DNA of 64,000 nt from Selaginella tamariscina (lineage: Eukaryota; Streptophyta; Lycopodiopsida; Selaginellales; Selaginellaceae), in contig PUQB01000301.1 of assembly GCA_003024785.1 (NCBI GenBank), forward strand, positions 24,258-88,257. The letters run 5' to 3'. The position numbers and the translations under genes are program-made. Position 1 is the first letter of the stretch. Every line of letters starts with the position of its first letter. A model generated the notes under the pieces. It was not told the DNA's origin, made no database searches, and was given only the letters and a program-made list of their open reading frames with translations. Below, one piece after another: positions 34,014-62,065 of the stretch.

Positions 34014-34026
34014 TTAAACCCTAACT
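34014..34026 (-). promoter_or_regulatory. Telo-box upstream of GGCT
   Basis: AAACCCTAAC lies about 10 bp upstream of the minus-strand ATG at 34006, in line with telo-boxes at the other housekeeping genes here. Confidence 0.5.
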
Positions 34027-35091
34027 CATTGCCCTAAAATGTTTCTTATATAATGAAAGGAATGTTAAAAAGGTAAAAAGAAAACGTTTTGTTTTTATAT
34101 TAAAGGTTCAAGTATGAATTAAATTTTTATGAATTATAATTTGTAATAAGTTTGAGGATTATATATTACAAATTTATAATGAATTTTGTTGTAAATTTAT
34201 AATAGTCTAATTCAAGGATATTAAATGTTAAGTTATGGATTTAATTCTTATGAATTTATAAGAAATTTAATTAACATATTTGTGATTAATATAGAGTTTA
34301 CTTTTTGTGAATTACAAATTTGTAATAAATTTGAGTACACTAAATTAAGATGTAAGTTTTGATTTTTATAAATTATAAGTCTGATTGATTAGTATTTTAT
34401 AAAAATAAATAAATTATTTATGTAATTCATATATAATTTACTAAACGCTTAATTACGATGCTGGATATCAGTATAAATAATTATTAATAATAGAACAGTA
34501 ATTAAATATTTATGAGATATATTACTATATAGTAAAGCCTCGAAACCTGATCTTAACTGAAGATATTGATTGCATTTTGCAAGTCCTGGTATTGGAATAT
34601 CAATGGGCCTTAAAGCTGCCTGTTTAAAAGTTAATAAGATTATAAACTATGTAATAACAATGTATGCACGTGGCTATACGTATGTGTGTATGTGTGCTCG
34701 TGTGAAAGAGAGAGATAACTTTTAAATCATTTTCATAAGGTGGAGTTTTCGTTTTCCGATATCATGGTAAATAGAAAAATGCCAAAATCCATATATTTGA
34801 AGAGCTACCTGTAATAAGATTAATTATTAATAATATTTAACATATTTAAATAATTAGTAATATTTAATTTTCCATATTGTGGAGCGGGAGCCAAGGTAGA
34901 ATAAGGCAATTTGAATACAAATGTAAGTTTTATATACGTGTATTATTTATACTTACAAAACGAGATTAAACTATTGCATATATAATAATTAATATAGTAT
35001 TTACTTAGCATTTCATATTTATGTTTAAAGCTCAATATATATGTCTTATTTGCAAAACTGATTCTTTTATTGAGTTTACGACTAAAACTTT

Positions 35092-38039: not shown

Positions 38040-38660
38040 TTTAATAAGAGTCTTACAATTTGCAGTGGATATATGGCACCAGAGTATTCAATGGGTGGGC
38101 GATTAACAGTAAAAGCAGATGTTTTCAGCTATGGAGTGCTTCTTTCGGAGATAGTTAGTGGAAGGAAATGCAGGGACCCTAAATTCCCAGATGAGCCTGG
38201 CCTTTTGGAGTTGGTGAGTATGGAAATGTTCTTACACTTAAGTTTTACACACACACACACACTTCAAACATATAAATATGCATATGGTTTCCGAGTATAG
38301 TATAAGATTACAATAATTATAAATCAATTATTAATGTAGTTATGGAGTGTTTATCATGAGAATAAGCTAGAAGAACTCGTTGACAAGAGGCTGCAGTCTA
38401 GTTATTCACAAACTGAAGCATTGAGGGCAATCCACGTGTCACTACTTTGCACACATGAAGATGAGACACGTAGGCCCAATATGAGTGACGTGGTTGCGAT
38501 GCTGCTGGGTTATCTGGTTGTTCCTGAGCTTCCAACAAAGCCACCGTGGTACTTCGGATTAACTAACTTTAAGTACGGTCTGTTTAACAGTTCATCGTAC
38601 GATAAGAGCACCACGAACACTGGGTCTTCAAGTGATGCAGGTGAAAAACCATTACTTTGA
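36177..38660 (+). CDS. Cysteine-rich receptor-like kinase, copy 1 (single DUF26)
   Basis: Receptor-like kinase of the CRK family, acting at the plasma membrane in stress and immune signalling. ATG 36177 opens a signal peptide ([20 protein letters not shown]). One DUF26/Gnk2 domain follows, with [40 protein letters not shown] (Cys spacing C-x7-C-x2-C) and RCYLRYE. Then come a Pro-rich hinge ([11 protein letters not shown], about 36755), a TM helix ([20 protein letters not shown]) and the kinase: [18 protein letters not shown] (Lys), a RD-type [20 protein letters not shown] and [16 protein letters not shown]. It ends at TGA 38660 after EKPLL. Seven or so exons match the CRK pattern. Frame changes occur near 36320 (between EGSIF and NNVLRFLY) and near 36965 (after the TM). 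The kinase exons are intact. Confidence 0.85.
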
Positions 38661-38740
38661 ATTCTTTCTTTCTTTTTCTTTGCCTATGTTAGTTTTTTTT
38701 TTTTTCTTTTCTTAATTATTTTTATTCTTTACACCACTTT

Positions 38741-38787
<47 letters not shown>

Positions 38788-41700
38788 ACACATATGTATA
38801 TATATATATACACATAATTATTCAACCTAACATAACTAAGGTTATTGAAATTTTTTAAACCCCTTTGAAGGAACTACATCATACATCTTGTTGCCCACTG
38901 TTACAATCACGAATGATATTGGATATATGTAGCTTTTGTTTTGTAAATTCAAGTAGAAGATATAACGATATTAAAAATGATATCAAATTATACTATGTGC
39001 GGATATAAATATGTATATACATTTAAAATTAATATATTTTAACATAATATTAAAGGAAGGTCGGGAAAGTATATATTGTTTATCAAGAGAAGGCTTGCGT
39101 TTGAATTTATTTATTAAGTTTTTTTTTATTAACCAATGCAAATGCACTATTTCAAGTGTGGACCGAGTACGGTGCTCAAAATAATTAATTATCGAATTTG
39201 TTTTTAAAAAACATATAGACAGTTTAAACTTAATAAGCTCGTGTTTTTAAGTGTTAACTAAAGTGTTATTTTTATAAAATAATTGACATTTAAACACACG
39301 TTCTATTAATGGTCTAGATTTGAAGTTCAAATCTAGCTAGATATAGACGTCATCGATCGATACGGTATAATTACAATTCCAATATAAATAAGTAATTAAA
39401 GAATAGATATGATATCATTGATATGTACTATATAATTTTGCGCTCAAACTTCGGAACGTTTTTTGCTCCCTCTTATGTTAGTGGTAATTAATTAACATTT
39501 AATTAATTAGTAAATACTAAAAAAATAAGAAAAAACATATATTTAAAGAAAACTTATGTATACCAAATCATATTATATAAGATGAAATGCATTAACCTGA
39601 TGGGTACTGCACCACATAGAACTCAACCTTGAGAATTGCAGTAATATGCCAAAGAACGAAATACAAAGCATATACAGCACTATAACAGACAGACAGACAC
39701 GCGCACACACACACATATATCATCAAGTGATGAGTGCGTTTGTGTGCATATATGTGTATAAGTTATACATTCAGTATGTTTGTACTTTCGGTGTACAGTT
39801 TTAAATCGATAACTAAGTTTTGTTACAGAGAGTATATACATACATACGTACATATATATACTTATGTAAATGTGCTAGATATGTACGAAATATTAGTGCG
39901 TACGAACTGTTGATTTCTATGTGGTTGCAAAACAGGAAGCTTTTGCATCTGCATCACTCTCTCTCGCTCACACACAACACACAGACACACAATGCATGGA
40001 GCTTGTACAACAGGTGTGTGTGATGATATATACATTTAAGACATTTTGTTCATACCAACAAGATCAATAAACCATTAGAAAATATTTTATATGTATATAT
40101 GCATTTCAAAACTGTATGTATATAAACAGCATAGTTTTTTAAAAAGTTCCATTTTTTATTCCTTTAAAGGTTACAGCGATCAGTTTGAAAAACTTAACTA
40201 GTTGTTTAAAATTAAAAGTTTTAATTTCGTTTATCGCTTACATCAGATTTATCTATAGAACTTATATGTTTAAATTAATATAAGACACTATTATCGTCTT
40301 CGGTAGTCTGATCTAATCAATTGTATACATACATACAATATTTATTTCTCTTTTATAATAAATACAACACACGGCATGTGCGTAGACTCTGCATGTATAC
40401 ATACATATTTATCTATGTATGTATGTGTATACATATTTTATCTTGAATATCTTTTTAATGCTCACCTAAATGATTAATGTGTATTAATAATATATAGTTT
40501 CCGATTGCTATTTAATTTGTACGTGCTTTTTCTTTAATGAATTAATGTTAAGAATAAAAATTTAAGCAGATTTTGCACCTCGACTGGGCATAAACGTTGC
40601 ATTTCAAGAGATTATATTCCGCTGAGGCACGTCAGCGTGCGTGGCGCGTGCACATATATACCTGATATATGCTGGTAGGAGTTTCAGGTATGCCCACACT
40701 TTGTTTGCATGGACATTAGGGGAATTAAAACAGCCAAATATTAGTAATTAAAACTTACAAATACAATTCTGCATTAAAAATTCATAATATATTATAATAC
40801 AATATATCATATACATGACATTGTAGTTTAGTTTCACACACACACAATATCAAGTGCATTTGATATCCTATTTGATAATAGTAAAATATATGTACAAAAC
40901 ACATACACGTATATAATCTATAATTATACACCTACTCCAGGTCAGAGTAAAATTAAAGATTTATTTTACGCTTGATTTTATACATGACATAATTTAAAAA
41001 AGTAAAGATAAAAAAATATAAAGAGCTAACCTCGATTTTACAGACTAGCCCATTCTACTATATTAACAATTAAAATTTTCCTTAAAAATCTACTCCACGG
41101 TGCTTCAAAATAATTAATTATTAATTTTGTTTTTACCATTTAATTATATATGCTGGGCAAATTTAACATATATGTAGCGGGTTAGAACTTAATAAGCTCA
41201 AAGTGTTATTTAAACTTATTTTACAGTTTCCATAAATTGTAAACACTCAGAATTCGATGGACAAGAATGTTTAAACACGTGTACATTACACGATCGTTGA
41301 AATAAAATAAGCACATGCGGAAACACTTACTTATGATATAATTATAAAGTAGTTAATACTATTAAATAGAGATTAACTTTACTATAAATTATATGATATT
41401 GAAGTGTGTTATACAATTTTACATTAAAAGTTCATAATAAAAAGTATAACATTATATAAAAATATTAAATAAATGTCTATTTTAGTCACTGGTTATGTAA
41501 GTCAATTTGCCGGTCTAACTTGGCAGCAATTTTAAACTGGGTATGTACATAATGTGAATGTTTATATTATATATCTGCGATACGGGTGCCTTTGAAGTTA
41601 TAATGCATATAAAACTATAATAACATATTTTCAAAATATAAAGAACTATATATAATGTCCTACATTTGGTTTCTAAGTCAAACATACAATCAATATTTAA

Positions 41701-42858
41701 AGAATAAATATTCAATAAAAGAACAATTCATGCATGTTTAAAATAAAGAGGAGTCTACATAAAATCTGTTTGCACTTCAAATTATTTATTTAATTTACAT
41801 ATAGAAGAGAGAGAGAGACACTATGTTAGATTGAACCATGTCATCCTATGGTTAAAGAACTTTACATGTAAATTGTTTCACCATATATGAATCTAAATGA
41901 ACGTTCTAAGTAAAATGGGAATGATACATAAAAATGAGAATATAAAAAAATAAATTAATTAATATTTACATATTAATTATTAATATTTTAAACATACAGT
42001 TTTAAAAATATTCTTTTTTAAATCTATATTATTCTAAAACTTATTTTTTATATTAAAAAATATTAATTAAACAATAAAAATACTAATTATTAAAAAATAA
42101 GACTATAACATTCCCATTTTAGTTACAACGTAGTATAAGTTCATAAACACATATTTAAGTCTGATGTAAAATTTTAGTTTATATAACACTAAATTAAAAC
42201 TATGAATCTTAAAAAATTAGTTAAGTTTGAAATTCAAATTTTTCATACGTCAAGTGTAACATTTTAAGAAATAAAAATGCAGCTTTTTAAAAATTAAGCT
42301 GTTTATACATATATTTTTGAGGCTGAACACACACACACACATATAAAATCTAACATTCTACCTCTCTTTTTTGCTTGATACTTGTACGATATCATGTAAT
42401 GGCACGCGCGCGCGAGTGTGTGTGTGTGTATAGACACACACAACGCACGCACACTTTGTTTGTTTTTTTTGCAGAAGAAGAGAGGATGATTTCTCACCAT
42501 CCTAAGAAGATGGCCTGAAGTGCTTTGGAAGAGGATACATTAAAGCCAAACAACACACACACACACATATATACCGACAATATTTATATATGTTATGCAG
42601 TTCTATAAATGTATGTAATGCACGAATATAATAGCCTATATGACGTTATATCTGTATATTGTATAATATATATTTTCACATACCCACTCACATGTATCAG
42701 TGTCCAGAGTGAGACTGACAGAGATATGGAAATATATGTGTAGCATTCTAAATGTTACTATGTGTAATAGCTATATATCATATATTGTATACAAGGGTTA
42801 TTACAGTTTGAATTATATAGATCCACACACACTATAGATATGGGGAAGTATATGCTAG

Positions 42859-42945: not shown

Positions 42946-43147
42946 TGTAAGGTAATACGAAATTACCATGGTATATTCTAGAAGTTACTAGAGATATTAT
43001 GGTCTGGCTAAATCCTTATAGGATAGTCCAAATATAGCTAGAATATACCTTTTCCTTTGTATATATAAACCTGACCTTGAATACAAAGGATATCTGAGTT
43101 TTCTGTCTTTTCGTATATTTACTGTGTTGTGTCTCGGGGTTCTCACA
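42946..43147 (+). repeat. 5' LTR of element 1
   Basis: About 200 bp, TG...CA. It shares tctagaagttactagagat, ggtctggctaaatcctt, a TATA box (TATATATAAACC, about 43060) and gtgttgtgtctcggg with the 3' LTR at 47387-47583. Small indels separate the two copies. Confidence 0.85.
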
Positions 43148-43148
43148 C

Positions 43149-43168
43149 TGGTGGAGAAGTCGGGCAAT
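43149..43168 (+). other. Probable tRNA primer-binding site of element 1
   Basis: TGGTGGAGA begins one or two bases after the LTR. TGG at the start complements the CCA end of a tRNA, and the first nine bases resemble the complement of a plant tRNA-Ala 3' end; the match weakens afterwards. The tRNA identity is a guess. Confidence 0.4.
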
Positions 43169-43261
43169 TTGTGAGAGAAGTTTCTTTTGATCTTCTTTTC
43201 TTTTATTTCTTTTCAATCTTTCCTTTTTTTTTGTTTCTTTGTTTCCTTTCATACGATTCTT

Positions 43262-44148
43262 ATGGAGCAACAACTTTTGGAACAACTAATTCGCATCACA
43301 CACCAGCATGAACAGCTCCTTCAACACTTGCAAGTTCCAGTTCTAGCTCCTACTCCTCAATCAAACCCACGTGTACGACCTCAACCTTTTCGAGGTGCGC
43401 CGGGTGCAGATGTTCACCATTGGTTGGCTCATTTCATCAATATTGCCACATATCATGGGTGGACAGCTACACATTGCCTTCGCGAGTTTCCAACTTGTCT
43501 TTTAGATGTTGCTCTCCAATGGTATAATAGTCGTCCACCACCAACAGGTTTACTCACAGATGAGCAATATTGGTTCACCCTTCAAGCGGAATTTAAATTG
43601 GCTTTTGGGAAAGCAGAAGATTCTGACGATGCGTTTCAACAACTTCATAGTTTGAAGCAAGCACCAAATGAATCTGTCATGCAGTTTGCTATAAAGTTTC
43701 GTGATCTCTTGATGCGGGCGGATCCCACCATGTCCGAGCGTAGCAAATTAGGAATGTTATGGCCTGCTCTTCGACCGGATCTTGTTGGTTATGTTCGGGC
43801 ACTGGGACCTGTCACTTTGGAAGAGGCTTTCACTCGGCACAACGTTTTGAAGCGGCTCCAAGAGTACAATTACCCATTCCAGAGGCCATCACTCCTCCAA
43901 CTTTCAATGCGCCTGCTGGTCCTGTGCCTATGGAGGTAGAAGCTGCTCGCATTAATGGTGCTGGTCGTGGTCAAGGACAAGGACAAGGACGACGATTGTC
44001 TTGTTGGGCTTGTGGTGTACTTGGTCACACTTACCAACATTGTCGGCGGTTTCCCGATTGGCGACCACCATATCCAGGTTGGCGTCCAGGTCAGAATCAA
44101 CCGGTTGCTGTTGTGGATGTTGCTCCTGTGGAGGCGGGAAACGAGTAG
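43262..44148 (+). CDS. gag: Element 1 gag (capsid and zinc-knuckle nucleocapsid)
   Basis: Structural protein that packages element RNA. ATG 43262 gives MEQQLLEQLIRITHQHEQL, then the Ty3-type capsid with QPFRGAPGADVHHWLAHF, LQWYNSRPP, LKQAPNESVMQFAIKFRDL and LWPALRPDLVGYVRAL. A shift of frame near 43900 is needed to reach the nucleocapsid with CWACGVLGHTYQHC, a CCHC zinc knuckle, and a stop at 44148. The protease follows directly in another frame. Confidence 0.85.
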
Positions 44149-44149
44149 G

Positions 44150-47100
44150 TGTGTTGGGTACGAAGGCACCTAACACTTTTCCTTCATCTCCTAGTCCTTC
44201 ATCTTTTCTTTCTTTTTCACCTCAAGCTTCGCGAACTCCTCATAAAGGGTTATCTCCATTTACACTACAAGGTTTCATACATGGTACCCCTGTAACTATT
44301 CTTATTGATACAGGTTCTAGTATTTCTTCGATTTCTGCTAATGTGGTTACACGTTGTGCTTTGACAACGGTGCCAAGCAAGGAAGCTTTACATGTGTTGT
44401 ATGGCGATGGATGTACTCGAGCTGCTTCGTCTACACTTGCTCAAGTACCTTTGCAGTTTGGGACTTATGCAGACGAGTTGCAACTCCATGTATTCTCACA
44501 CCAGATTTTTGATATTATTCTTGGGTGTACTTGGTTGGATGCATGTAAGGCAAGTTGCCAATTTGGGCCTCGACGGTTAATACTTCCAGGTCATTCACCT
44601 TTTCTTTTGGATAAACTCCCTCTCAAGCGATGTGGAGCAATTTTGTCAAGTGCCATCATGCATGAGCTAGATGTTTCAGCAATGGTGTCCTCAGTGTCAA
44701 GGAACTCTGGAAATGTACATGTGGCAACTGAACCAACTTCTTCTCAGCGAGAGTTTCAGGTACAACAATTATTGAAGAAATATTCAGATCTTTTCTCTAC
44801 AGATATCACCCCACTGCTAAGGTTCGAACACAACACCACATTCGAACAGGGGACGCTTTACCTTCTAAAGCTGCTGTTCGAAGGCGATCTCCAAAAGAAT
44901 TGGCCATTATACGAAAATGTGTGTCAGAGTTGCTGGAGAAGAAGCTGGCTCGCCGTTCTTTCAGTCCATGGGCATCGGAGCCCCATTTGGTGGATAAACC
45001 TGATGGATCTAAGCGGTTTTCACGGTGGATTACCGTCCCGTCAATGCTGTTACAGAACCAGATAGCTATCCCTTGCCGAACACACAGGATTTGTTAGATC
45101 AATTGGGTAAGAGTCGTTGGTTTACTAAATTGGATCTTGCTTCAGGTTATTGGCAAATTCCTATGGCTCCCGAAGACATTCCCAAAACAGCATTCCTTTT
45201 TGGTTTATATGAGTTCCTTGTTATGCCTTTTGGTTTAGTATCTGCTCCTGCCACATTTCAGCGCATGATGGATGAAGTTTTTAATGATGAGTTTCTGGAG
45301 ACAGTTGCAAAGTACTTGGATGACATTCTGGTTCATACTCAGGGATCTTGGGAAGATCATCTCAAGGAAGTAGCTCGTGTGTTTGATCGTTTACGGGAGT
45401 ATGGGCTCAAGTTGAAGAAGCCAAGTGTGTTTTTGGCACAGTTGAAACTACGTATTTGGGGTACATGGTTTCTCGTGAGGGGTTACGTGTGGATCCATCC
45501 AAGGTGGAGGCTGTGGCGAAATTTCCTCGTCAACAGATGTACGGTCTTTACGACGATTTCTTTGGTAAGGTCACATATTTAGGACGTTTTATACCCGTTT
45601 CTGATGTCAATGCTCCTTTGCGAGCTTTGTTGCATGAGGATGTTCCTTTTGTGTGGACTGACGATTGTGAAGATTCTTTTTGTAAGCTACGAAAGTATTT
45701 GACGTCCCCTCGTGCTTCATTATCCGGATTTTTCTCGTGTTTTATATTACGAAGATGCTTCTTCTTAGGTATTGGTGGAGTCCTAATGCAGACTGAGGTA
45801 TGTGATGATGAGTCCGTTGACATCCCATGTGAGAGTAGGGCATTGCAAGGCCCTGAACTATTGTGCTTCAGATCTTGTGCTTAGCTACATGTGGGCTTTT
45901 TGTCTTCATGTATATCTCATGGATCTCATACGCTTTTGGAGTGTGATCATGCAGCTGTTTCTGCCTTATTGAAGAATAAAAGTTGCTGGACGATCTGCCA
46001 GATGGGCACTTCAACTCCAAATGTATGACTTTGAGGTCAAACATCGTCGGCGGAAGTATGGTGGATGCTGATGCTCTTTCTAGGGCTCCTTGTGCAGTTA
46101 TGGCCAATCAATTGGATCTTACAATTCCATCTCTTGCAGAGGTCTCAAGGGCTCAGGAAACAGATGCTTGGATTCAACCTATTCGTTTGGCACTAACCAA
46201 TCCTTCTCAACCATCCAACTCTCGTTTTTCTTCATTTGTGGCACAATTTCGCATACATGACGGTGTGGTTTATTTTATTGGCACAGATGTTACTTCACTA
46301 CGTTTGGCAATTCCAACCACTTTTGTTCCTAGGTATCTTGCAGCATATCATGATTCACCACTTTCTGGCGGACATTTTGGTTATCGAAGAACTTTGGACA
46401 GCTTACAACGTTCTTTTTACTGGCCGAATATGCGACAAGATGTGATCCAGTACGTACGAAGTTGTTCATTGTGTCAGACTCGGAACTCCTCACGATCAAC
46501 TGGTGCTTTAGAGTCTATACAGGTGGAACGGCCATTTGAACTTGTTGCATGGGATTTAATTGGTCCTTTTCCACCTTCAGCTGCAGGCAACCGATATGTT
46601 GTGGTTTTAACAGATTATTTGACACGTTGGGTGGAGGTTGGAGCTTTACCAGATGCCACGGCCCATAGTGTTGCTGATTTTCTACTCACTCGGGTAATTT
46701 TGCGCCATTCATGTCCAGAACGGATTTTATCAGATAATGGACCTGCCTTTATTGCTGAAGTTTTGAAGGTTTTGACTTCACGGATGGGAATTAACAATCT
46801 TTCACATCTCCCTTTCATCCACAAACAGATGGATTAGTCGAGCGTTTGAATCGGACTTTTAAAGGTATGATTTCTAAGTATGTAAATCCTACTCAGAATG
46901 ATTGGGATTGGTATTTGCGATACTTAGAATTTGCATACAACACTGGCATTCAAAGTTCCATTGGCATGTCTCCATTCAAAGCATTGTATGGGCGAGACCC
47001 TCGAATGCCTCCAAAGTTGGTTTGGCTTCTCACAAACCTAAGTATGCTGAAGCTCGATATTGGGCGACTTACTTAGATCGAGCTCTTCCTTTATTACATG

Positions 47101-47391
47101 CTACCTCAGCAGAACATTTAGGTCGGGCACAAGTTCAACAACAACAGGATTATAATTCTCGTCATCGGCCACCTCCTCAGTTTGCTATTGGTGACCTTGT
47201 TTTGTACATTTTCCGGAACTTCATCAAAAAGGACTCACTCCAGGTTTCTTGCGGAAATGGCTGGTCCTTATAAGATTCTTCGTCAAGTTGGCCCTCAAGT
47301 TTACCATGTGCAAGATGTTGAGTCTCGAGAAGCACCTTTGGTTGCTCACGTTTTACGATTGAAGGTTTTTCTTACGAGGGGGATAATGTAA
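44150..47391 (+). pseudogene. pol: Element 1 pol (PR-RT-RH-INT), frame-broken
   Basis: Protease: VTILIDTGSSISSISANVV with the catalytic DTG (about 44300). RT: SPWASEPHLVDKPDGSKRF, WFTKLDLASGYWQIPMA, VMPFGLVSAPATFQRMMDEV and the catalytic box KYLDDILVH (about 45311-45335). RNase H is scattered over frames between 45690 and 46080, with EDAS, LGIGGVLMQ, ESRAL and DALSRAPC still visible. Integrase: HDSPLSGGHFGYRRTL, a CSLCQ zinc finger, AWDLIGPFPP, LSDNGPAFIAEV and a V-E-R-L-N glutamate region, then the GDLVLYIF and VGPQVYHVQDV C-terminal module. At least six frame breaks. The final TAA (47389-47391) lies within the first bases of the 3' LTR, so the polypurine tract is coding. Confidence 0.82.
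47376..47386 (+). other. Polypurine tract of element 1
   Basis: GAGGGGGATAA immediately before the 3' LTR TG, the expected plus-strand primer for reverse transcription. Confidence 0.75.
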
Positions 47392-47583
47392 TATATGAAT
47401 TAACCATGGTATATTCTAGAAGTTACTAGAGATATTTATGGTCTGGCTAAATCCTTGATAGGATAGTCCAAAATAACTAAATATACCTTTTCCTTTGTAT
47501 ATATAAACCCTGACCTTGAATACAAAGATATCTGAGTTTTCTGTCTTTTATATATTTACTGTGTTGTGTCTCGGGTTCTCACA
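47387..47583 (+). repeat. 3' LTR of element 1
   Basis: Begins TGTAATATATG and ends TTCTCACA; pairs with the 5' LTR. The end is uncertain by one base because of the CACA/ACATG overlap with the target duplication. Confidence 0.85.
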
Positions 47584-47976: not shown

Positions 47977-50368
47977 ATGGGGAGGTTAATCACTGTGATA
48001 TTTTACATAATTATGTGCTTACTCATAGTTAGAGGTGATCCTCCAACAGATATTCACCGAATGAAATTTACTCCAACACAAAGAAAACAACTGAAGGGAG
48101 TATATTCCTACAGAATCTCATACCGTGTTTAGTTTTCTATACAAAGAAGCTCCACTCAATGGCAGTGCAGTATACGGGTACGGACAGTATCCGGATGCTG
48201 CGTACGGAAAATTCGAGTGCTATAATATGTCGCAAGGTGACTGTGGACAATGTTTCAACACAGCTAGAGATGACATAAAAAGAGATGCTCCGTTAGCAGT
48301 TGGTGCTCGATACTGGATTAATAATACATATTATAGATGTCATCTACGCTACGAAAAACTATGATTTTGTTCCAGGTATGCATATTATGTATGAAACTGT
48401 ATTTTCTTAAATATATTTTATATTGAATGTTATTTTTGAAATGTTAATTAATTAAACAAATGCAGTGTGTATATCCAGTACTTTTTGAAAGTGAGTCTAG
48501 TGAATATTTTATGTTGTGAATTTATATTAGCATTAAGTTATATATAAACTCAAAGTTTTTAAGACATAATGTTTTGTATATATATATAATTTAATCTTAA
48601 TAGTTTTATAAAATAACAAATAATACATGTATATAATACATTTTCATTCGATTAGGACACGAATTGTCTGCTTCTACCTCGGCTCTCGATCCACAACCTG
48701 GAAAAGGTAAAAGCATTAAACGTTAGTACAAATTTATTTAAATTTTTATTATTGAAATATGTTAATAATCACAGTCTTTTAATCTTATTACAGGTAACTC
48801 TTCAAATATAGGAATAATTATAGGTGCTACCCTTGTGGTATTGCATTTATATCTCTACTCGGGATTGTGGGATTCTTATATTTATCAAAGTACCGAAAAA
48901 ACAAACTCCACCTTATGAAAATGATTTAAAAGGTATCACACATGCGAAAGCGCACACACATACATTGTTAATACATAATTTATAATCTTATTAACTTAAA
49001 AACAGGCAGGTTTGAGGGCCCATTGATATTCCAATACCAGGACTTGCAAAATGCAACCAATAACTTCAGTGAAGACCATAAACTCGTCAAGGTGGTTTCG
49101 GAGCAGTCTACAAGGTATTACTATATAGTAATATATGTCATTAATATTAATTACTGTATTCTTATTATAATTATTTGTCACAGGGATTTTAAATGATGGT
49201 TCCATAGTAGCGGTTAAAAGACTTTCGCTGAGTTCCAGCCAAGGAAAACGTGAGTTTGTGAACGAGGTTAATATTATTACTGGTATACAACATCGTAATT
49301 TGGCCAAGTTACGAGGTTACTGTATCAAAGGTGATGAGAGGCTGTTGGTTTATGAGTTTCTTCAGAATGGTAGCCTCGACCAAGCGTTATTTAGTAAGTT
49401 ATATATTAATTAGATTTTTGTTTTATAAGACACTAACTAATTATTCTTAAGATTATCATGTGCTTGATTGGCCAACAAGGTTTAACATTGCGATAGGAGT
49501 TGCTCGCGGCCTTGCATACCTCCACGAAGAGTCTCAAATACAAATCATTCACAGGGATATAAAAGCCAGTAATATACTCCTCGACAAGGACTTGTGTCCC
49601 AAAATATCAGACTTTGGAATATCTAAGCTCTTCGACCACGATAGAAGCTCCATTGATACTAAAATTGCTGGCACTTAGTAAGTGTGTGTGTGTGAGAGAT
49701 CCTTACATATATAGACGAGTCACAGGTTTAAGAGTGTTGTTCAATCACTAATATTCCTATATACGTACATGAACACACACAAGCTAAGTAGATAGTAAAT
49801 GTTACGTATATATATAGTTAATAAGAGTTTCACGATATGCAGTGGATATATGGCACCAGAGTATGCAATGGGTGGGCGATTAACAGTAAAAGCAATGTTT
49901 TCAGCTATGGAGTGCTTCTTTTGGAGATAGTTAGTGGAAGAAAATGCAGGGACCCTAAATTCCCCGGCCTTTTTGAAATTGGTAAGTATCCAAATGTTAT
50001 TACATTTAAGTTTAACACACATGCAGTACAGTTCACAATACATTAATTATAAATCATTTAAATTTGATTATTAATGTAGTTATGGAGTGTTTATCAAGAA
50101 AATAAGCTAGAAGAACTCGTCGACAAGAGGCTGCAGTCTAGTTATTCACAAACTGAAGCATTGAGGGCAATCCACGTGTCACTGCACTGCACACATGGAG
50201 ATGAGACACGTAGGCCCGCTATGAGTGACGTGGTTGCGATGCTGCTGGGTCATCTGGTTGTACTGAGCTTCCAACAAATCCACCGTGGTACTTCGGATTA
50301 ACTAACTTTAGTCTAACAGTTCTACGTATGATAACACCACGAGGTCCACTTGATGCGCCATACTTTGA
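47977..50368 (+). pseudogene. Cysteine-rich receptor-like kinase, copy 2, frame-broken
   Basis: Tandem duplicate of CRK1, near-identical over its exons. It retains a signal peptide (MGRLITVIFYIIMCLLIVRG), the single DUF26 domain with [18 protein letters not shown], the TM exon, the kinase Lys (VAVKRL), HRDIKASN and DFGISKLF. Relative to copy 1, a G is lost in the glycine loop (near 49085), a base is lost after LTVKA (near 49890), and bases are lost near 50262, plus further changes in the stalk and TM exons. The upstream leader exon and donor are conserved (about 47805-47821). Either a decaying duplicate or an assembly-damaged gene; the number of lesions is higher than in copy 1. Confidence 0.8.
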
Positions 50369-50560
50369 TTCTATATAATATCTCCGTACATATGTATACA
50401 TGTTTCGCACAAATAGTGCAGATAGTGAGACATAAGGAAACACAGAATGTCAATCCAATGCATATTTTATTTATTGAGTTTACCATTATTTTTAACATTG
50501 TATGAATATTAGTATCTTATCACGAAGATGATAATTGGGATTGCATTACTAGTGAAATAT

Positions 50561-51063
50561 CTTCTTTCGGAGATAGTTAGTGGAAGAAAACTAAATTCCC
50601 CCTTTGAAGTTGGTGAGTATGGAATGTTTTTACACTTAAGTTTAACACACACACCACACACTTCAAACATATAAATATGCATATGGTTTCCAAGTATAGT
50701 ATAAGATTGCACATTAAAGTACTACAATACAATAATTATAAATCAATTATTAATGTAGTTATGGAGTGTTTATCAAGAGAATAAGCTAGAAGAACTCGTT
50801 GACAGAGGCTGCAATCTAGTTATTCACAAACTGAAGCATTGGAGGGCAATTCACGTGTCATGCTTTGCACACATGAAGATGAGACACGTAGGCCCCGCTT
50901 GAGTGACGTGGTTGCGATGCGCTGGGTTATCTGGTTGTTCCTGAGCTTCCAACAAAGCCACCGTGGTACTTCAGATTAGTACGGTCTGTCTAGCAGTTCA
51001 TCGTACGATAAGAGCACTTACACTGGGTCTTCAAGTGATGCAGGTGAAAAAACATTACTTTGA
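50561..51063 (+). pseudogene. CRK 3' fragment, copy 3
   Basis: Only the last two kinase exons are present. A shortened first piece has LSEIVSGRK equivalents (cttctttcggagatagttag, 50561-50580). After the intron come the LWSVYQE / KLEELVD block and the VVPELP-like end, through to GEKTLL-TGA at 51063. It has internal deletions, including loss of the segment around GLTNFK. It lies about 190 bp after CRK2, so it is a partial tandem copy with no kinase core. Confidence 0.8.
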
Positions 51064-53888
51064 ATTCTTTCTTTCTTTTTCTTTGCCTATGTTATGTTTT
51101 TTTTTAATTACTTTTATTCTTAAAGATATCACATACACACTTTTACCACACACACACACACATATATATCTGTGTGTGTGTGTGTATGTATGTATGTTAT
51201 ACATATATATGTACATAATTATTCAACCTTAACATAACTAAGGTTATTGAAATTTTTTGAACCCCTTGAAGGATACACTTGTTGCCCACTCTTACAATCA
51301 CGAATGATATGGATATATGTAACTTTTGTTTGTAATTCAAATAGAAGATATAACAGATATTAAAAATGATATCAAATTATACTACGTGTGGATATAGATA
51401 TAATGGGATCATGTATATACATTTAAAATTAATATATTTTAAACATAATTAAAGGAAGGTCGGGAAAGTAATATTGTTTATTTAACCCTAAACCTAAATC
51501 CTTAAACCCCTTATTTCTAATGGTAATTAATTAATATTTAATTAATTAATAAATATTAAAAAGTAAGAGGGTGATAATGTTGAACGACCACTTGACACCC
51601 ATTTGTACTACATGTAATGTTTATATAGGATAAAACTTTGACAATTGTTCCACTCTTTTTTTTCCATTTGACCTCAGTTAAATCAATTCAAGCAATGTGA
51701 AAAGAAAGAGTGCAAAGACAATTATATATACCAAATGTATTATATAATAATGAAATGCATTAAACTGATGGTGTTTTTAATTTATATTCTATAAAACCAT
51801 TATAATAATTAACTTAATTAACTGTGATTAAGGGAGGCATTACGTTTATATATATAAAAAAAATTATATGAAAAATTATATATTATATAAAAAAACACAA
51901 ACGAAATTCATATAAGATCTGTTTGTGCTCCGTAATATTTTCTGAATTGACATAAATAGAACAGAAAAAAAATATATACACAGCCATGCCATCCTTTACA
52001 ACGTGATTTAAAGTACAACTTTACATAAATAATAACAAAAATACATAATAATTTACATATTTAAATCTGATGTAAGCTTTTAAATTAGAAGTTTAGATTT
52101 TTAAGAATTAGTTTTATTTCAAGCACAAACTCTCCCGCTCAGTGAATTTTCACACACACACTCCATGGAGCTTGTACAACAGGTGTGCGATCGATGATAT
52201 ATACATTTAAGACATTTTGTTCATACCGACAATATCAATAAAACATTAGAAAATTTTGATATGTATATATGCAATCTCAAAACTGTATGTTAAATAACAG
52301 CATAGTTATTAAAAAGTTCCATTTGCATTTCTATTTCTTAAAAGGTTACGGTGATCAGGTTGAAAAACTTAACAATTGTTTAAAATTAAAGTTTTAATTT
52401 CTTTTTATATAAACAAAAGCTTACAATTATTTAAAAATTAAAGTTTTAATTTCGTTTATATAAACTAAAAGCTTACATCAGACTTATTATATGAACTTAT
52501 ATGTTTAAAAGACACTGTTATCTTCTTCGTAGTCTGATCTAATCAATTATATACATACATATACAATATTTATTTCTCTATTATAATAAATACAACACAC
52601 GGCATGTGCGTAGACTCTGCATGTATACATACATATATATCTATGTTATCTTTATCTTGAATATCGTTTTAATCTTAGTATAAATGATTAATGTGTATTA
52701 ATAATATATGTAGTTTCCGATTGCTAATTAATTTGTAAGTGCTTTTTCTTTAATAAATAAATGTTAAGAATAATAAATTTAATAGAAACAGTGATTAGCT
52801 CTTTATACTTTTTTTTTCTTTACTTTTTTAAATTATGTCATGTATAAAACTAAATTTTTAATTTTACCCTGACCTGGAAGTAGGTGTATAATTATAGATT
52901 ATATAATGTGTATGTGTTTTGTACATATATATTTCATCATTCCTATTTTACATAGGATATCAAATGCATTTGATATTGTGGTGTGTGTGAAAGTAAACTG
53001 CTGATTGTCTATACATGATTATATATGTGACTTATGTCATACAATGTCATGTATATGATATTTGTATTATATATAATTGTGGGTAATAATCTTAGATTAT
53101 ACAATTTGTATGCATTTTGTACATATGTTTTCATCCACTTTATACGATATGTGTGCATGCGTTACGAATATGCCCTTATACGAACCTGAAATTTGCTTTA
53201 AATTATACATATCCTGAAACTTCCAATTTATTTATTTTTAAATTAGAACGAAGTTTATTAAGTGGACAAAGTAAATACCATAATTATTTAGAAAGTTATA
53301 TTATATAAGCATGCTGATTTACATCATTAATAAAACGGTTTAAAATTATATCAAATTTTACTAGTGTTGATATATTATATATATGCATTATACTGGATCA
53401 TATATATAATGTTTTCCTTTATATATACATTTGATTTTTCTAAAAGTGAATTCTAGAATTAATACCTTTAAAAGATAGTATTCAAGATATACGCGGGGAC
53501 GTGAATTTTTTATTTAAAGAAGTTTGCCTTTCAAATTGATTTATTTATTTATCTTATTAAACATGTTTATAATCAAATTAATAGACAAAGTATACCCCTT
53601 CTTTTTAATGGTTTTGACTTAATTATATAATGTTATAGTTTTTATTTTGAATTTTTAATGCAAAACAGTATTTGTAAGTTTTATAAAGTTCAGAAATAAT
53701 GTAAACAATATCAATTATATATTAACACAATGTAAGTCAATTCGCCGGTCTAACTTGGCAGCAATTTTAAACTGGTATGTACATAATGTCAATGTTATAT
53801 TATATGTCTGCGATTGAATTATAATGCATATAAACTATATAATAACATATTTTTTCATAATAATATAAAGAATAAGAAGTTGTGTGAG

Positions 53889-53929
<41 letters not shown>

Positions 53930-54155
53930 TGTCCTACATTTGGTTTCTAACTCAGACACACAATCAAGATTTAAAGAATAATATTCAATAGAGAACAATT
54001 CATGCATGTTTAAAATAAAGAGGAGTCCAGATAAAATCTGTTTGCACTTCAAAATATTTATTCAATTTACATAATACAGAAAAGTAAAAAATAAATAAAT
54101 AAATAAATAAATAAAATTTACACTATGTTACGCTTGAACCATGCCATCCTTATGA

Positions 54156-55770: not shown

Positions 55771-55986
55771 TGTCACGACCGATACAGAATACAGGATTCC
55801 GGATACAGGACATGGGTTGCAGGACTTTCCTACAGGATTCCGGATACAGGATATGGGTTGCAGGATTTTCCTACAGGATATTCCTACCAGGATTCCGGAC
55901 ACAGGATTCGGTTGCAGGATATTCCTACAGGATATGCCACAGGATATGCCTAGAGGATAAGGGACATGTGGACTCATCTTAGCCTC

Positions 55987-56037
55987 TGCATGCATGCAAT
56001 CACTTTTGCATGCATGCAACCACTTTTGCATGCATGC
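55987..56037 (+). promoter_or_regulatory. Triple RY-box array in the U3 promoter of element 2
   Basis: TGCATGCATGC occurs at 55987, 56007 and 56027, an exact 20-bp period, ending 25 bp before the TATA-like box. CATGCATG is the RY motif bound by plant B3 factors (ABI3/FUS3/LEC2). The array is repeated in the 3' LTR. Confidence 0.6.
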
Positions 56038-56062
56038 CTAGATTAGCTCTTGGAGTTGTGAG

Positions 56063-56106
56063 CATAAAAGCTCCGACCTAATTGTTGTACAATCAGTTAC
56101 TATCAA
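56063..56106 (+). promoter_or_regulatory. TATA-like box and predicted transcript 5' end of element 2
   Basis: CATAAAAG (56063-56070) lies about 30 bp before CAGTTACTATCAA (56094-56106), which is the exact reverse complement of the primer site after the LTR. The start of R is inferred from this spacing. Confidence 0.6.
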
Positions 56107-56406
56107 CACCAGTCTTACTACGATCAATCTCGTCTTGTCTTGTTCTTGTCTTGTTTCCTGTCCTGTTCCTGTCTCGCTCCTATTTCCTGTCCTGTTCCTG
56201 GATCCTGTCCTGCCTGGATCCTGTCCTGTTCCTGGATCCTGTCCTTTCCTGTCTTGCTCCCGGATCCTATCCTGATCCTGTCTTGCTCCTAGATCCGTCC
56301 TGTTCCTATTCCTAGTTCCTGTCCTGCTCTCGGTCCTGTTCCTGAGTCAAGCCTTCATGTCCTTGGAATCCTGTTCTTCCTGGTTCCTGGATCGTGGCTT
56401 GACAGT

Positions 56407-56419
56407 TTGATAGTAACTG
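56407..56419 (+). other. Self-complementary primer-binding site of element 2
   Basis: TTGATAGTAACTG, beginning two bases after the 5' LTR, pairs over all 13 nt with CAGTTACTATCAA at 56094-56106. No match to the initiator-Met tRNA site (TGGTATCAGAGC) is present. This is the arrangement of the self-priming Tf1 family of fission yeast. Confidence 0.75.
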
Positions 56420-56487
56420 CTTCATAGTTCTCCGTTTTCCAGCTACCTTTTTTCTTGATTCTTTTCCTCCTTTTTCTTTCCTAGATC

Positions 56488-57455
56488 ATGGCTGATTTTG
56501 AGCGTTTCAACGCGAGCACCAAATGCTACTTCATGAGCTGGCCACTTTGCGCCAAGTGGTCACCGACCTGCAAGGTTCCACCACTGCGGCACATGCAGCT
56601 GCTGATGCATCCTCCAAGGCTGCTGCGCAGGCTCTCTCCCAGGCATCGGTGGTTCCCTCTTCATCAAACTTTTCTTCGGAGCCGAAGGTTAGCATGCCAG
56701 AGAAGTTCAGTGGTAATCGTGCCGATTTCCAAGGTTTCCTGAATCAGATCCGGCTCTTGATCCGTATGCAACCACGGCGCTACTCGACTGATGCTCAAAA
56801 GGTGGGTCTTTTGGCATCACTAAGTGGATTCCACGGGCTTGGTTGCCCCTTGCTGGAGCGTGACGACCCATTGGGAAGACTTGAAGGTTTCGTGGCTGCC
56901 TTTGAAGCCTGTTTTGGAGATCCTGATAAGTACCGTTCTGCATGCACGAAGTTACGGAAGCTCACTCAAGGATCCCGACCAGCTTCCGTCTATGCATCCG
57001 AATTTCAGCAACTTTGCACGAACATTCCATGGGACGAGACTGCATTGATCGAACACTTCCGTTTTGGGTTGAGGGATGACGTGAAGGACCTTCTCCTTAC
57101 GTTACCGGATGCCCAAACATTAGCGGAGATCATGCAACAAGCTGTTCGTTGCGACAACCGTTTGTTCGAGCGTCGTCAGGAAAGATCCCGTCAACAGTTC
57201 CTGCAAACCAATCCTGCAGCTGTGGTACATGTTCCTGCACCACCTTCTGGAGTAGTTCCTATGGAGGTTGAGAAATCCAAGCGTGGCTCTCTTTCCGCTG
57301 CTGAGAAGCAACGTCGTCGCAGTGAGAACCTGTGCTTGTATTGTGGTGGAGCAGGACACAAGGTGGCAGATTGTCCTATTAAAGCCAGGAACTTCAAGAC
57401 GCGTGAAGTTGAAGCTGAAGTTCAGTCGGAAAACTCCAATGTCCACTTCGTCTAG
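56488..57455 (+). CDS. gag: Element 2 gag
   Basis: Capsid and nucleocapsid protein. ATG 56488 gives MADFERFNASTK; a one-base shift near 56525 leads into LHELATLRQVVTDLQG. The capsid core includes KVSMPEKFSGNRADFQGFL, FVAAFEACFGDPDKYRSA, LRKLTQGSRPASVYASEF and ALIEHFRFGLRDDVKDLLL. The zinc knuckle is CLYCGGAGHKVADC (about 57331-57372). The frame ends at TAG 57455, just before the protease in another frame. Confidence 0.88.
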
Positions 57456-57466
57456 GAGCCGCGAAG

Positions 57467-59870
57467 TTGGACGTAGGTGCAGGCTCCATTGGTGCTGCTC
57501 ATACCATCCCATCACTTAAGTTTCCTGTACACATTCATCTTAATAATCGAGAGCTCATGGAGTTTGCCTTGTTAGACACTGGTGCAAATGCATGCTTCAT
57601 GGATGACACGTTTGCAACTCAACATGGCATTTCGGTGGTGAAGTTGAAGCGTGCAGTTCCTGTAGAGGTGGCCGATGGGCGTCTAATTGCTTCTGGCGCA
57701 GTTACCCATGCTACCGAACCTCTCTCCTGCAGGTTGGCACATTCAACTGTTCAATTTCCTTCAACTTGATCAAGACTCGGTCGACTCCCATCATTTTGGG
57801 CATGCCATGGTTCGTTGTTGCAAATCCGCAGATCGACTGGAGGTCTAGGACGCTCACGTTTTCCTCTCCACAGCTAGGATCAATCCTGTACCTTCCTGTG
57901 TGCAGGATACATCCTTAGTATCTGAGGCAGTACAAGCTACAGGATTGACCGTGCCTGTTCCTGTACCAGTGTTGAAGACTCCTCCTCGACAGGATTCACC
58001 TCATGTCAGTTCCTCAGCACATCCGCAGGCTCTCTCCACTCCTGTAAGTTTGCGGTGTCCTGTACAGGGTTCTTCCAATCCTGTATCAGTGTCGAAGGTT
58101 CCTCCTCAACAGGATCCACCTCCTGTTGATTCGTCAGCACATTCGCAGGCTTTTCCACTCTTGCGCAACCACGGACTCCTGTACAGGATTCTTCCAATCC
58201 TGTACACTCATCAACACCCACAGGTTTTTTCCAATCCTGCTTTTTTTACCGCTTCTGTTCCATCCCCCAAGATCCTTCCTCTTTTTCAGTCACAGCTCCC
58301 TCCTTCTCCTCTCCGAGTTCTTACCACTACCATGCATGAACTCGCCACTGATCCTGCTCCCTTCCACCTTTTTGCCTTTCAAGTAACTCCTACGTCCTCT
58401 TCTACCTTTCCTGTATCCGACTCCCTGTTTTTTCTCCTTCTCCTTCTCCTTCTCCTCCTTCTTCCCTACCATCCAAGTACCACGACTTTAAGGACGTTTT
58501 TGACAAGCACAAGGCTGCAGTTCTTCCTGTTCACAGGTCCTACGACTGTCCTATTGATCTTGCGGAAGGAAAGACTCCACCATTCGGACCGATTTATGCA
58601 TTGTCACCCACAGAGTTGGAGGTTCTTCGTCAGTACATCGAGGACAACTTGGCATCCGGCTTCATTCGTCACTCAAAGTCCCCTGCAGGAGCCTATCTTC
58701 TTTGTCAAGAAGAAGGATGGGAGTTTACGTTTGGTTGTGGACTACAGGGGTTTGAATCAAGTCACCATTCGGAATCGGTACCCGTTGCCATTGATCCCGG
58801 AACTTCTCGATCGGCTGCGAGGAGCAAAGGTGTTCACGAAGATCGACTTACGAGGAGCCTACAACCTTGTACGGATTCGTCCCGGCGATGAGTGGAAGAC
58901 TGCCTTTCGTACAAGGTATGGACATTTTGAGTACACGGTAATGCCTTTCGGCCTTACCAATGCCCCAGCTGTTTCCAACACATGGTGAACGACATTTTCC
59001 GTGACTTCTTGGACCAGTTTGTGGTGATCTACCTCGACGACATCTTGATTTTCTCCAAGGACCAGGCGGCACATGACAAGCATGTACGACTAGTTTTAGA
59101 GCGGCTTCGCGAGCATGGCCTGTACGCGAAGTTGGAGAAGTGTTTTTTCGATAGGGATTCGGTGGAGTTCTTGGGCTACATCGTCTCTCCTGCTGGCGTT
59201 TCCATGGACATGCACAAGGTGAAGACCATCGTGGAGTGGGAGAGGCCCAAGTCGGTACGAGATGTACAATGTTTCCTTGGCTTTGCAAACTTCTACAGGC
59301 GGTTCATACAGGACTTCTCCAAGCGTGTACTTCCACTCACAGAACTCACCAAGCGCACAGGACTTTTCTCTTGGTCCGACAAGGCGGAACACGCGTTCAC
59401 AACACTCAAGGACGTTTTCACGACAGCTCCGATTTTAGCACATCCTGACCCTTCTCATCCTTTCTTCATTGAAGCAGATGCCTCGGATTTTGCAGTAGGA
59501 TCCGTCTATCGCAAGTTGGAGAGGACAAGTTGCTTCATCCTGTAGCTTTTCACTCTCGTAAGTTCCTGTCGGCGGAGATCAACTACGAGATTCATGACAA
59601 GGAACTCAAGGCCATTGTGGATTCGTTTGAGGAGTGGCGGCATTTCCTGGAAGGTGCTGCACATCCTGTACAAGTTCTTACGGATCACAAGAACCTGGAG
59701 TACTTTCAAACGGCTCGGTCCTCAGTCGGCGACAGGCTAGGTGGGCAGAGTTCCTATCACGTTTTGACTTCGTCATCGTCTACAGGCCCGGCTTTCGGAA
59801 TGGCAAGGCGGACGCATTGTCTAGGCGCTCTTACCTTGCACCAAGCCCGGGCGATCCTGCATTTGACGTC
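57467..59870 (+). CDS. pol: Element 2 pol part 1: protease, reverse transcriptase, RNase H (frame-broken)
   Basis: Protease with [15 protein letters not shown] (DTG active site, about 57565). A Pro/Ser-rich linker (57900-58470) is unusually rich in CAGGA/TCCTG words. RT starts about 58480 with [19 protein letters not shown] and continues with [45 protein letters not shown] and the catalytic [12 protein letters not shown] (about 59024-59059). [14 protein letters not shown] and [11 protein letters not shown] lead into RNase H with [12 protein letters not shown] (catalytic Asp), [20 protein letters not shown] and [11 protein letters not shown]. Breaks near 57765, 58470, 58690, 58970, 59510 and 59740 fit small indels. 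Confidence 0.87.
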
Positions 59871-59878
59871 AAAGGCAA

Positions 59879-61429
59879 GTGTTGTTGGGTCCTGATCGTT
59901 TCCGGCTTGCGGCACTGCAGGTTCATCAGGCTCCAGCAAATTCAACACTCCTACAGGACGTCCAGTTGGCTACAGACGACTTGGCAAAGAATGTGTTCTC
60001 ACACATTCATCCTGACGTTGCAAGTTCCTCTTCCTCCAGTTCCCGTCCAGACTACAACCTGTTCACCATACAGGATGGACTCCTGTACCGGGAAGGTCTC
60101 CTGTACGTTCCTGTTGGTATTTCCAGGACTCGTGTGGTACAGGATTGTCATGATACCCCGGCTACAGGACATTTTGGTGTGGCCAAGACAGTGGAGTTGG
60201 TGACTCGCAACTATTGGTGGCCTGGGTTGCGAGGTTTTGTGGAGAGGTTTGTACGGAGTTGTGACACTTGTAGCAGGTCGAAGATGCCTCATCATGCACC
60301 CTCTGGTCTTCTTCGTCCTCTTCCTGTTCCGTCTGCTCCTTGGAGATCCATTTCTATGGATTTCCTCACAGATCTTCCTCCTTCTCGTGGATTTGATGCA
60401 GTTCTTGTGGTGGTTGACCGTTTCACCAAGCAGGCTCATTTCCTACCCTGCAACAAGACAGCTACAGGTCAGACAACTGCCGAGTTGGTGATCCGCGAGG
60501 TGTTCCGACATCATGGTCTTCCTGAGAGCATTGTTTCCGATCGAGGTCCACAATTCATGTCCAAGTTTTGGCGAGAGCTTCTTCGGAGTCTACAGGTCAA
60601 AGCGGATCTTTCTTCAGGATATCACCCACAAACCGATGGGCAGTCCGAACGCACAATTCAGACCTTAGAACAGTATCTTCGTTGCTTCATCAGTTACCAG
60701 CAGGACAACTGGTTGGACCTCCTTCCAATGGCGGAGTTTGCCTACAACAACTCCATCCACGCATCTACAGGACAGACACCTTTCTTTGCTCTTACAGGCC
60801 ACCATCCACGTTTTGACTTTGCTCCTCCCGCTTCTCCTTCTTCCGCTCCTGCAGTACAGGATCGTCTTCAGCATCTTCGGCAGGTACAGGATGATCTCCA
60901 GGTTCATCTTCAACAGGCACAGGAACGATACAAGCATCATGCTGATGCTCACCGTCAGCCGGCACCTGCATACAAGATTGGTGATCTCGTGTGGCTTCTT
61001 CGTCGACACATTCGCACCAACAGGCCTTCTTCTAAGTTGGATTTTCAACGATTGGGCCCTTATAGGATCGTGGCGGAGGTAAATCCTGTAGCTTTCCGAC
61101 TCGAGTTACCATCCACGGTGAAACTTCATCCTGTGTTTCACACCTCTTTGTTGGAGCCGTATCATCCTTCTTCTCTTCCCGGTCGTGTTTCTTCTCCTCC
61201 CCCTCCTGTGGTCATTGACACGGAACCTGAGTACGAAGTTGCAGCCATCCTTGACTCTCGTCTTCATCGTCACCAACTCCAATACTTGGTGGATTGGAAA
61301 GGGTACCTGCCTACTGATCGCACTTGGGAACCTGCATCCAACTTACTCCATGCTTCTTCCAAGGTTGCTGCCTTCCATCGGCATTATCCTGCTAAACCAG
61401 GTCCCAAGACTCGTGGAACTCGTCTTTAG
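59879..61429 (+). CDS. pol: Element 2 pol part 2: integrase with chromodomain
   Basis: A 516-codon open frame. It has an HHCC zinc finger (H in [12 protein letters not shown], then [10 protein letters not shown]), the catalytic core with [11 protein letters not shown] (D), [13 protein letters not shown] (D) and [20 protein letters not shown] (E), [20 protein letters not shown], the GPY-like module [17 protein letters not shown] with [12 protein letters not shown], and a C-terminal chromodomain [11 protein letters not shown]...[19 protein letters not shown]. The frame is intact from start to TAG 61429. The chromodomain is the defining mark of chromoviruses and binds histone H3 tails. It probably belongs to one gag-pol polyprotein rather than having its own start. 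Confidence 0.92.
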
Positions 61430-61440
61430 GGAGGAGGTGC
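61430..61440 (+). other. Polypurine tract of element 2
   Basis: GGAGGAGGTGC directly before the 3' LTR, the plus-strand primer site. Confidence 0.7.
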
Positions 61441-62065
61441 TGTCACGACCCGATACAGAATACAGGATTCCGGATACAGGACATGGGTTGCAGGACTTTC
61501 CTACAGGATTCCGGATACAGGATATGGGTTGCAGGATTTCCTACAGGATATTCCTACCAGGATTCCGGACACAGGATTCGGTTGCAGGATATTCCTACAG
61601 GATATGCCACAGGATATGCCTAGAGGATAAGGGACATGTGGACTCATCTTAGCCTCTGCATGCATGCAATCACTTTTGCATGCATGCAACCACTTTTGCA
61701 TGCATGCCTAGATTAGCTCTTGGAGTTGTGAGCATAAAAGCTCCGACCTAATTGTTGTACAATCAGTTACTATCAACACCAGTCTTACTACGATCAATCG
61801 TCTTGTCTTGTTCTTGTCTTGTTTCCTGTCCTGTTCCTGTCTCGCTCCTATTTCCTGTCCTGTCCTGGATCCTGTCCTGCTCCTGGATCCTGTCGTCCTG
61901 TCCTGTCCTTTCCTGCTCCCGGATCCTATCCTGATCCTGTCTTGCTCCTAGATCCGTCCTGTTCCTATTCCTAGTTCCTGTCCTGCTCTCGGTCCTGTTC
62001 CTGAGTCAAGCCTTCATGTCCTTGGAATCCTGTTCTCTTCCTGGTTCCTGGATCGTGGCTTGACA
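61441..62065 (+). repeat. 3' LTR of element 2
   Basis: Begins TGTCACGACCC and ends GGCTTGACA. Apart from indels, mostly in the TCCTG-rich part, it is the same as the 5' LTR and keeps the CAGTTACTATCAA motif and RY boxes. Confidence 0.93.

Follow-up and report, generated by a model that had tools for sequence, protein, structure and literature searches.

The question raised by this locus, a window of 64,000 nucleotides from Selaginella tamariscina (contig PUQB01000301.1), is how the long terminal repeat (LTR) retrotransposon in its right part, referred to here as Element 2, starts its reverse transcription. An earlier, sequence-only reading had suggested that it uses no tRNA and instead folds the 5' end of its own RNA back onto the primer binding site (PBS). 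The body of the element comprises the following features:

55771 to 56404, + strand: 5' LTR, 634 bp with TG...CA ends, from the LTR-pair alignment
56502 to 57452, + strand: gag open stretch, Pfam Retrotrans_gag; zinc knuckle recognized by eye
57419 to 57766, + strand: protease stretch, DTGAN by eye, and Pfam
58692 to 59542, + strand: reverse transcriptase and start of RNase H, here in two frames (58692-58985 and 58931-59542)
59867 to 61426, + strand: integrase with H2C2 zinc finger, rve core, SH3_Tf2-1 and chromodomain, from Pfam
61429 to 61437, + strand: polypurine tract GGGAGGAGG before the 3' LTR, sequence by eye
61441 to 62065, + strand: 3' LTR, 625 bp, from the LTR-pair alignment

According to the LTR-pair analysis, Element 2 has AATAT on either flank, and its LTRs are identical at 619 of 620 aligned positions, with another 9 gaps totalling 19 bases; that they differ nearly only by indels suggests slippage or long-read errors. 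As assembled, the pol region of this copy is frameshifted, and the integrase-chromodomain stretch (59867-61426) is an uninterrupted reading frame. The Pfam match of the protease to Asp_protease_2 scores 25.1 bits (cut-off 24.3), and that to gag-asp_proteas scores 26.4 bits, slightly below the cut-off of 28.2. At the C terminus of the integrase, both the SH3_Tf2-1 and the chromodomain models exceed their Pfam cut-offs, and the aromatic cage of the chromodomain can be seen by eye (EYEV...VDWKGY in P0001); in the accessible part of PMC3350952, the cage residues are given as Y24, W45, and Y48.

The features relevant to priming lie within and just beyond the LTRs:

56063 to 56070, + strand: TATA-like box CATAAAAG, its first base 32 nt before A56095
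56095 to 56106, + strand: self-primer AGTTACTATCAA (12 nt) at the predicted RNA 5' end, with CACCAG next; putative cut after A56106
56346 to 56353, + strand: 5' arm GTCAAGCC of a stem in the predicted fold, exact in 33 of 41 junctions matched (45 given)
56396 to 56403, + strand: 3' arm GGCTTGAC at the LTR end, completing this predicted stem; 39 of 41 junctions matched (45 given) have it exactly
56407 to 56418, + strand: PBS TTGATAGTAACT (12 nt), two bases (GT) past the LTR
61765 to 61776, + strand: copy of the self-primer in the 3' LTR, from sequence match

After the GT beyond the 5' LTR comes TTGATAGTAACTG (56407-56419), the exact reverse complement of CAGTTACTATCAA inside the LTR (56094-56106, +); its first bases, TTGATAG, begin exactly 2 bases past the LTR. 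The coordinates thus bear out what the sequence-only reading had noticed here, including the presence of the inner motif in the 3' LTR (an exact second copy at 61764-61776, +) and a TATA-like box about 30 bp before the motif. A scan of the window for CAGTTACTATCAA with up to 2 mismatches gave a single further match, which has 2 mismatches. Such complementarity could be due to chance, or to shared descent without function, and the size of the match bears on this directly: the 20 nt past the LTR contain a 13-nt reverse-complement match inside the LTR, which exceeds every null 20-mer, as this length was reached by none of 4,976 other internal ones (longest match, 11 nt) and none of 57,500 outside Element 2 (longest, 12 nt).

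Alternatively, the primer at positions 56405-56425 might be a tRNA or, as known from some copia lineages, an internal half-tRNA fragment, the match to the LTR being incidental. As the consulted portion of PMC6317226 states, tRNA primers are usual in plant LTR elements and half-tRNA primers exist in plants. The earlier reading had named a good tRNA match in this interval as grounds for abandoning self-priming, and the two tests applied, which were the only ones, revealed neither a TGG of the tRNA type in the 60 nt after the LTR of Element 2 nor a 12-mer complementary to the initiator tRNA (up to 1 mismatch) anywhere in the window.

The proposed 13-nt duplex held up as far as complementarity is concerned, which is exact over 13 nt, but not as a functional length, since base 13 is not kept in the family. 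Among the family copies that pair over 12 nt, PBS base 13 varies among G, C, and T, and the primer is preceded by C or T, so that C56094, the base that precedes the predicted start, is not paired in every copy. Owing to this variable 13th pair, the duplex was taken as 12 nt counted from A56095; an RNA starting at A56095, which lies 32 nt after CATAAAAG, would be expected to leave base 13 unpaired. Judging from the sequence, 12 of the 13 pairs appear to be functional, and the 13th does not.

Folding of the RNA from 56095 to 56440 paired its first 12 nt with the PBS in both the minimum free energy and the centroid structures, with a z score of -2.5 and an equally good result in 1 of 100 shuffles. 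The predicted U5 stem GUCAAGCC/GGCUUGAC adjoins the PBS, and in the model it resembles the U5-IR stem of Tf1, which, in the work of Lin and Levin from 1998, is said to require a stem of this kind. The same fold contains a long hairpin that is predicted to close the entire R-U5 leader, and this is what a role of the pairing in packaging, dimerization, or translation control would lead one to expect, with priming achieved in some other way; indeed, pairing by itself does not show priming. Such a role would leave it to coincidence that the duplex sits at the primer position, 1 to 3 nt past the LTR end, not only in the window but also in eight relatives (see below), that the window duplex ends at the predicted RNA start, and that a tRNA-type site was not seen there. 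A real structure that serves only these other purposes is therefore considered unlikely.

Under the self-priming reading, transcription would start at A56095, and the first 12 nt of the RNA, AGUUACUAUCAA, would fold back onto the PBS, which lies 2 nt past U5, beside the GUCAAGCC/GGCUUGAC stem. If Element 2 behaves as Tf1 does, its RNase H domain would then cut the RNA after nt 12, and the reverse transcriptase would extend the resulting 12-mer into minus-strand strong-stop DNA. What the sequence itself shows is the group affiliation, the spacing, the predicted fold, and a complementarity that is conserved and co-varies; where the RNA starts, and that it is cut and used as a primer, we infer from these. 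Self-priming has been demonstrated in Tf1; for other elements, it has been proposed from sequence matches. In Tf1 of Schizosaccharomyces pombe, the 5' end of the RNA is complementary to the PBS over 11 nt, according to the available part of PMC7175516. Like Tf1 (and Tj1 and the sushi elements), Element 2 has a PBS next to its 5' LTR that is complementary to its predicted RNA 5' end, over 12 nt rather than 11; it also shares with Tf1 a stem, here predicted, in U5 near the PBS and a chromodomain integrase of the same group. In contrast to Tf1, it resides in a land plant and is known here from sequence.

If primer and PBS function together, changes in one would be expected to be matched in the other. 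The genome searched (300,702,823 bases in 1,391 contigs) contains 1,764 LTR-PBS junctions of the family that match the pattern TTGACANNTTGNNNGTAACT (the reversed control gave 1), and the 83 of 19,337 candidates that were scored in an integrase search are all 96 to 100% identical to the Element 2 integrase. Junctions were chosen through the integrase in 25 cases (L109-L128, L163-L166, and L169), in one of which (L125) the fetched stretch stops inside the LTR; the primer and PBS pair at 12 of 12 positions in all 24 others, 21 of them with TTGATAGTAACT (A-type PBS) and 3 with TTGATTGTAACT (T-type PBS), accompanied by its partner, the A-type primer AGTTACAATCAA. This compensatory change, TTGATTGTAACT with AGTTACAATCAA, was found in 7 of 7 sequenced pairs. 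The first 100 of the 1,764 junctions listed comprise 95 A-type and 5 T-type PBSs, with no other variants at the free PBS positions.

The genome as a whole holds 65 T-type PBSs, and its LTRs contain the exact A-type primer 184 times, the coordinates of the latter coming from the first 100 listed. On the contigs common to both listings, coordinates place an exact A-type primer upstream of 31 of 41 T-type PBSs, versus 1 among the first 95 A-type PBSs listed, the latter being an uncompensated junction (primer at C1:945466, PBS at C1:945680); the other 10 of the 41, which were left unread, have no exact A-type primer within 900 nt. The co-variation anticipated for the family is thus present as paired switches, but it is not perfect, as mismatched copies exist. 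Among the junctions read from the PBS listing, 4 of 5 T-type ones pair, and the coordinates of the fifth (L147) put its PBS 505 nt downstream of an exact A-type primer; 11 of 15 A-type ones pair, and all 4 mismatched ones belong to the six that had been picked for an unusual spacer. In 11 copies picked for an altered primer, the PBS could be located in 4, where it is unchanged and leaves one mismatch each. Pooling of the junctions, with the window included (50 given), yields 33 plus 7 perfect pairs, 8 mismatched ones, and 2 without both sites. Decay after insertion would explain the mismatched copies.

A tree of the R/U5 region built without the primer and the PBS (48 rows) places six T-type copies together and L145 apart, and the paired state requires 3 Fitch changes on it (2 to 4 in 60 resamplings). 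Six of the seven sequenced double-change copies therefore represent one lineage, and the co-variation within the family concerns one base pair, which leaves some room for shared descent; nevertheless, the paired switches are repeated on this tree. A tRNA of fixed sequence would leave unexplained why the PBS changes along with the primer in the LTR. One element, G000:C104 (380-823 and 6130), has a T-type 5' LTR, and its presumed 3' LTR carries the A-type primer base; recombination between the two primer types is possible there.

A pattern search of the same genome for other self-primed families gave 59 matches versus 32 for the reversed control, eleven of the 59 being changed copies of the Element 2 family, and three further candidates (L140-L142) had no self site within the approximately 460 bases read. 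With an Azolla-type integrase as the query, the Element 2 family was retrieved again, along with four further places (L163-L166) that carry the usual site.

In a protein search, at least 5,645 of the 7,981 scored sequences were integrase-like; the named ones among the 120 listed include proteins from Absidia, Anolis, and Xenopus, and named relatives among the matches listed are 46 to 55% identical to the Element 2 integrase. Among DNA loci spanning most of the integrase, L002-L008 come closest, at 52 to 58% identity, and L016 is 69% identical over residues 76-307. No match to Element 2 was found in the phage search; plasmids gave six distant matches, and viral contigs gave one weak locus, L001. 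L002-L008 sit on contigs of a bin labeled "uncultured Trichormus." Trichormus (Nostoc) azollae is the cyanobiont of Azolla, and L002-L008 are for this reason probably fern DNA, although they may come instead from another Azolla-associated eukaryote; the DYW_deaminase profile had no match in the bin that holds L002, nor in the controls.

In the integrase tree (39 rows, which lack the named Tcn1, SM-Tcn1, moss elements, and Element 1), Element 2 falls into a 27-row clade (support 98/98) with fungal (Absidia, Microbotryum, Powellomyces, and Berkeleyomyces) and vertebrate Tf1/sushi elements. Within it, a 9-row subclade (99/97) unites Element 2 and the chytrid Powellomyces with L002-L008; another five kinds of chromovirus row from the Azolla bin (L030/L058, two from L033, L057, and L060) stay outside the 27-row clade. 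This position, together with the SH3_Tf2-1 domain and the chromodomain, upholds the original assignment of Element 2 to the Tf1/sushi group; its family can be described as a young, abundant Tf1/sushi chromovirus, most likely of the Tcn1 clade.

Eight relatives (L002, L004, L005, L008, L009, L014, L021, and L038) have their own, differing primers that match a PBS 1 to 3 nt after the LTR end, e.g., ACTCTTGATCAA in L002 and AAGGCGAACAA in L004, L005, and L008. In the first seven, which belong to the clade, 11 to 14 nt past the LTR end are complementary to their own LTR, so that 7 of the 15 DNA rows of the 27-row clade have a self site; L038, which also has one, is weakly placed outside it. A self site was counted as real only directly after a TGACA or TTACA LTR end, since matches of at least 11 nt, present in 16 of 40 loci, occurred by chance in 4 to 9 of them (mean, 5.4) in ten block shuffles. 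The position of the integrase suggests that L003 and L006 begin downstream of the site; in L007 (205-320), the match between PBS and primer is down to approximately 7 nt, though the element is otherwise close to L004 and L005. No self site was counted in L010, L012, L017, L018, and L024, some of which perhaps lack an LTR; L018 has an 11-nt match away from the LTR end. The predicted start lies 32 to 33 nt after YATAAA in the window, L002, L004, L005, and L008, and no YATAWA was seen within 50 nt before the primer in L009, L014, L021, and L038. Pairing of the RNA 5' end with the PBS is also predicted by folding in L002, L004, L005, L008, L009, and L014, and the two sites are unpaired in the L007 fold. 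In the L002, L005, and L008 folds, the LTR end pairs instead with a stretch just 3' of the primer; L004 has the same bases and a different predicted fold.

The initiator-tRNA 12-mer (up to 1 mismatch) was detected in L023, L026, L030, L033 (both strands), L037, L040-L043, and L046, as well as once in L021, on the minus strand and away from any LTR end. In the non-sushi chromovirus L033 (plus strand), it lies 2 nt after the LTR, the sole case in which an adjoining LTR was confirmed, and the rows in the tree that bear it (L030, both L033, and L037) are all outside the clade. A fixed tRNA would not account for other families having a PBS that matches their own LTR; with this, the co-switches, and the TGG and initiator-tRNA scans taken together, priming of Element 2 by a tRNA or its fragment appears highly improbable. 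That these families match at the LTR end with unrelated sequences also argues against chance or descent without function, which is scarcely credible as the source of the pairing. The match itself, membership in the Tf1/sushi group, the co-variation, the relatives' own sites, and the predicted fold all support the original proposal, and the Element 2 family very probably primes reverse transcription with its own RNA, without a cellular tRNA.

Two side observations concern the sequences around the primer. In L004 (2718-2747), L005 (65-94), and L008 (19-48), GTTCGCCTT is found between the TATA box and the predicted start; as it repeats part of the primer once more in inverted orientation, it could allow the promoter to form a hairpin. 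In addition, CAACACCAGT or near-identical bases surround the predicted primer cut in L002, L005, L007, L008, and the window (56104-56113), so that this region is alike between the window family and the Azolla-bin families despite their different primers.

Self-priming as such is not new for this clade. Neumann et al. (2019; REXdb), in the part of PMC6317226 available, predicted it for 12% of plant LTR elements, including most of the Tcn1 clade, which they found in mosses and club-mosses. In line with that account, Element 2 is a chromovirus of a non-seed plant that has an aromatic-cage chromodomain and clusters with Tf1/sushi elements of fungi and vertebrates. Given this earlier prediction, the mechanism is a known one, and the Element 2 family is a new member. 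Compared with what those sections of PMC6317226 report, namely, the PBS type of each element, the present data describe the pairing in one family with its compensatory switches and add possible fern members. Novikova et al. (2010), in the accessible text of PMC2864245, described SM-Tcn1 of Selaginella moellendorffii as having no evidence for either a tRNA site or self-priming, and obtained Tcn1-like clones only from Selaginella among the lycophytes, ferns, and horsetails tested. Set alongside that description, Element 2 resembles SM-Tcn1 in its probable Tcn1 clade membership, lycophyte host, 5-bp duplication, and T-rich stretch between the 5' LTR and gag, but differs from it in having a clear self site; a lycophyte-like host thus gains such a site where, in the same text, SM-Tcn1 reportedly had none. 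In the open-licence literature searched, no report of fern Tcn1 elements or of compensatory primer/PBS switches in plants was found. Self-priming was therefore already predicted for the clade, and the co-switch within a family and the probable fern members are what is added here. The results suggest that the self-primed clade reaches ferns, and the 1,764 junctions, with many near-identical copies and two co-switched primer/PBS types, offer a plant system for testing self-priming.

A more far-reaching reading, put forward tentatively and with considerable doubt, is that the primer and the PBS switch as a unit because each new PBS is a copy of the 12-nt self-primer and does not owe its pairing to selection, and that the same self-primed clade is present in ferns (Azolla), where PMC6317226 and PMC2864245, in the portions available, did not find it. 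If the PBS is indeed copied from the self-primer, the history of the family would record self-priming directly.

The window carries several other features; no tRNA (ARAGORN) or Rfam family was detected anywhere in it. Element 1 (42946-47583) is a gypsy element with gag, reverse transcriptase, and integrase by Pfam and short LTRs with CATG on both sides by eye; Pfam detected no chromodomain in the stretch scanned (45980-46834). In contrast to Element 2, the sequence after its 5' LTR (from 43149) begins with TGG and resembles a tRNA site. Element 1 lies between the two copies of a diverged tandem duplication (38041-41707 and 49818-53981, spaced by approximately 12 kb) with kinase-like fragments recognized by eye. 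On the minus strand, the window also encodes a PPR protein (15349-16251), whose top match is unnamed and whose best named matches include proteins from Selaginella moellendorffii, Ceratopteris, and Sphagnum, in agreement with a land-plant host that is probably not a seed plant. A ChaC-like protein (33557-34030; Pfam PF04752) is encoded on the minus strand as well.
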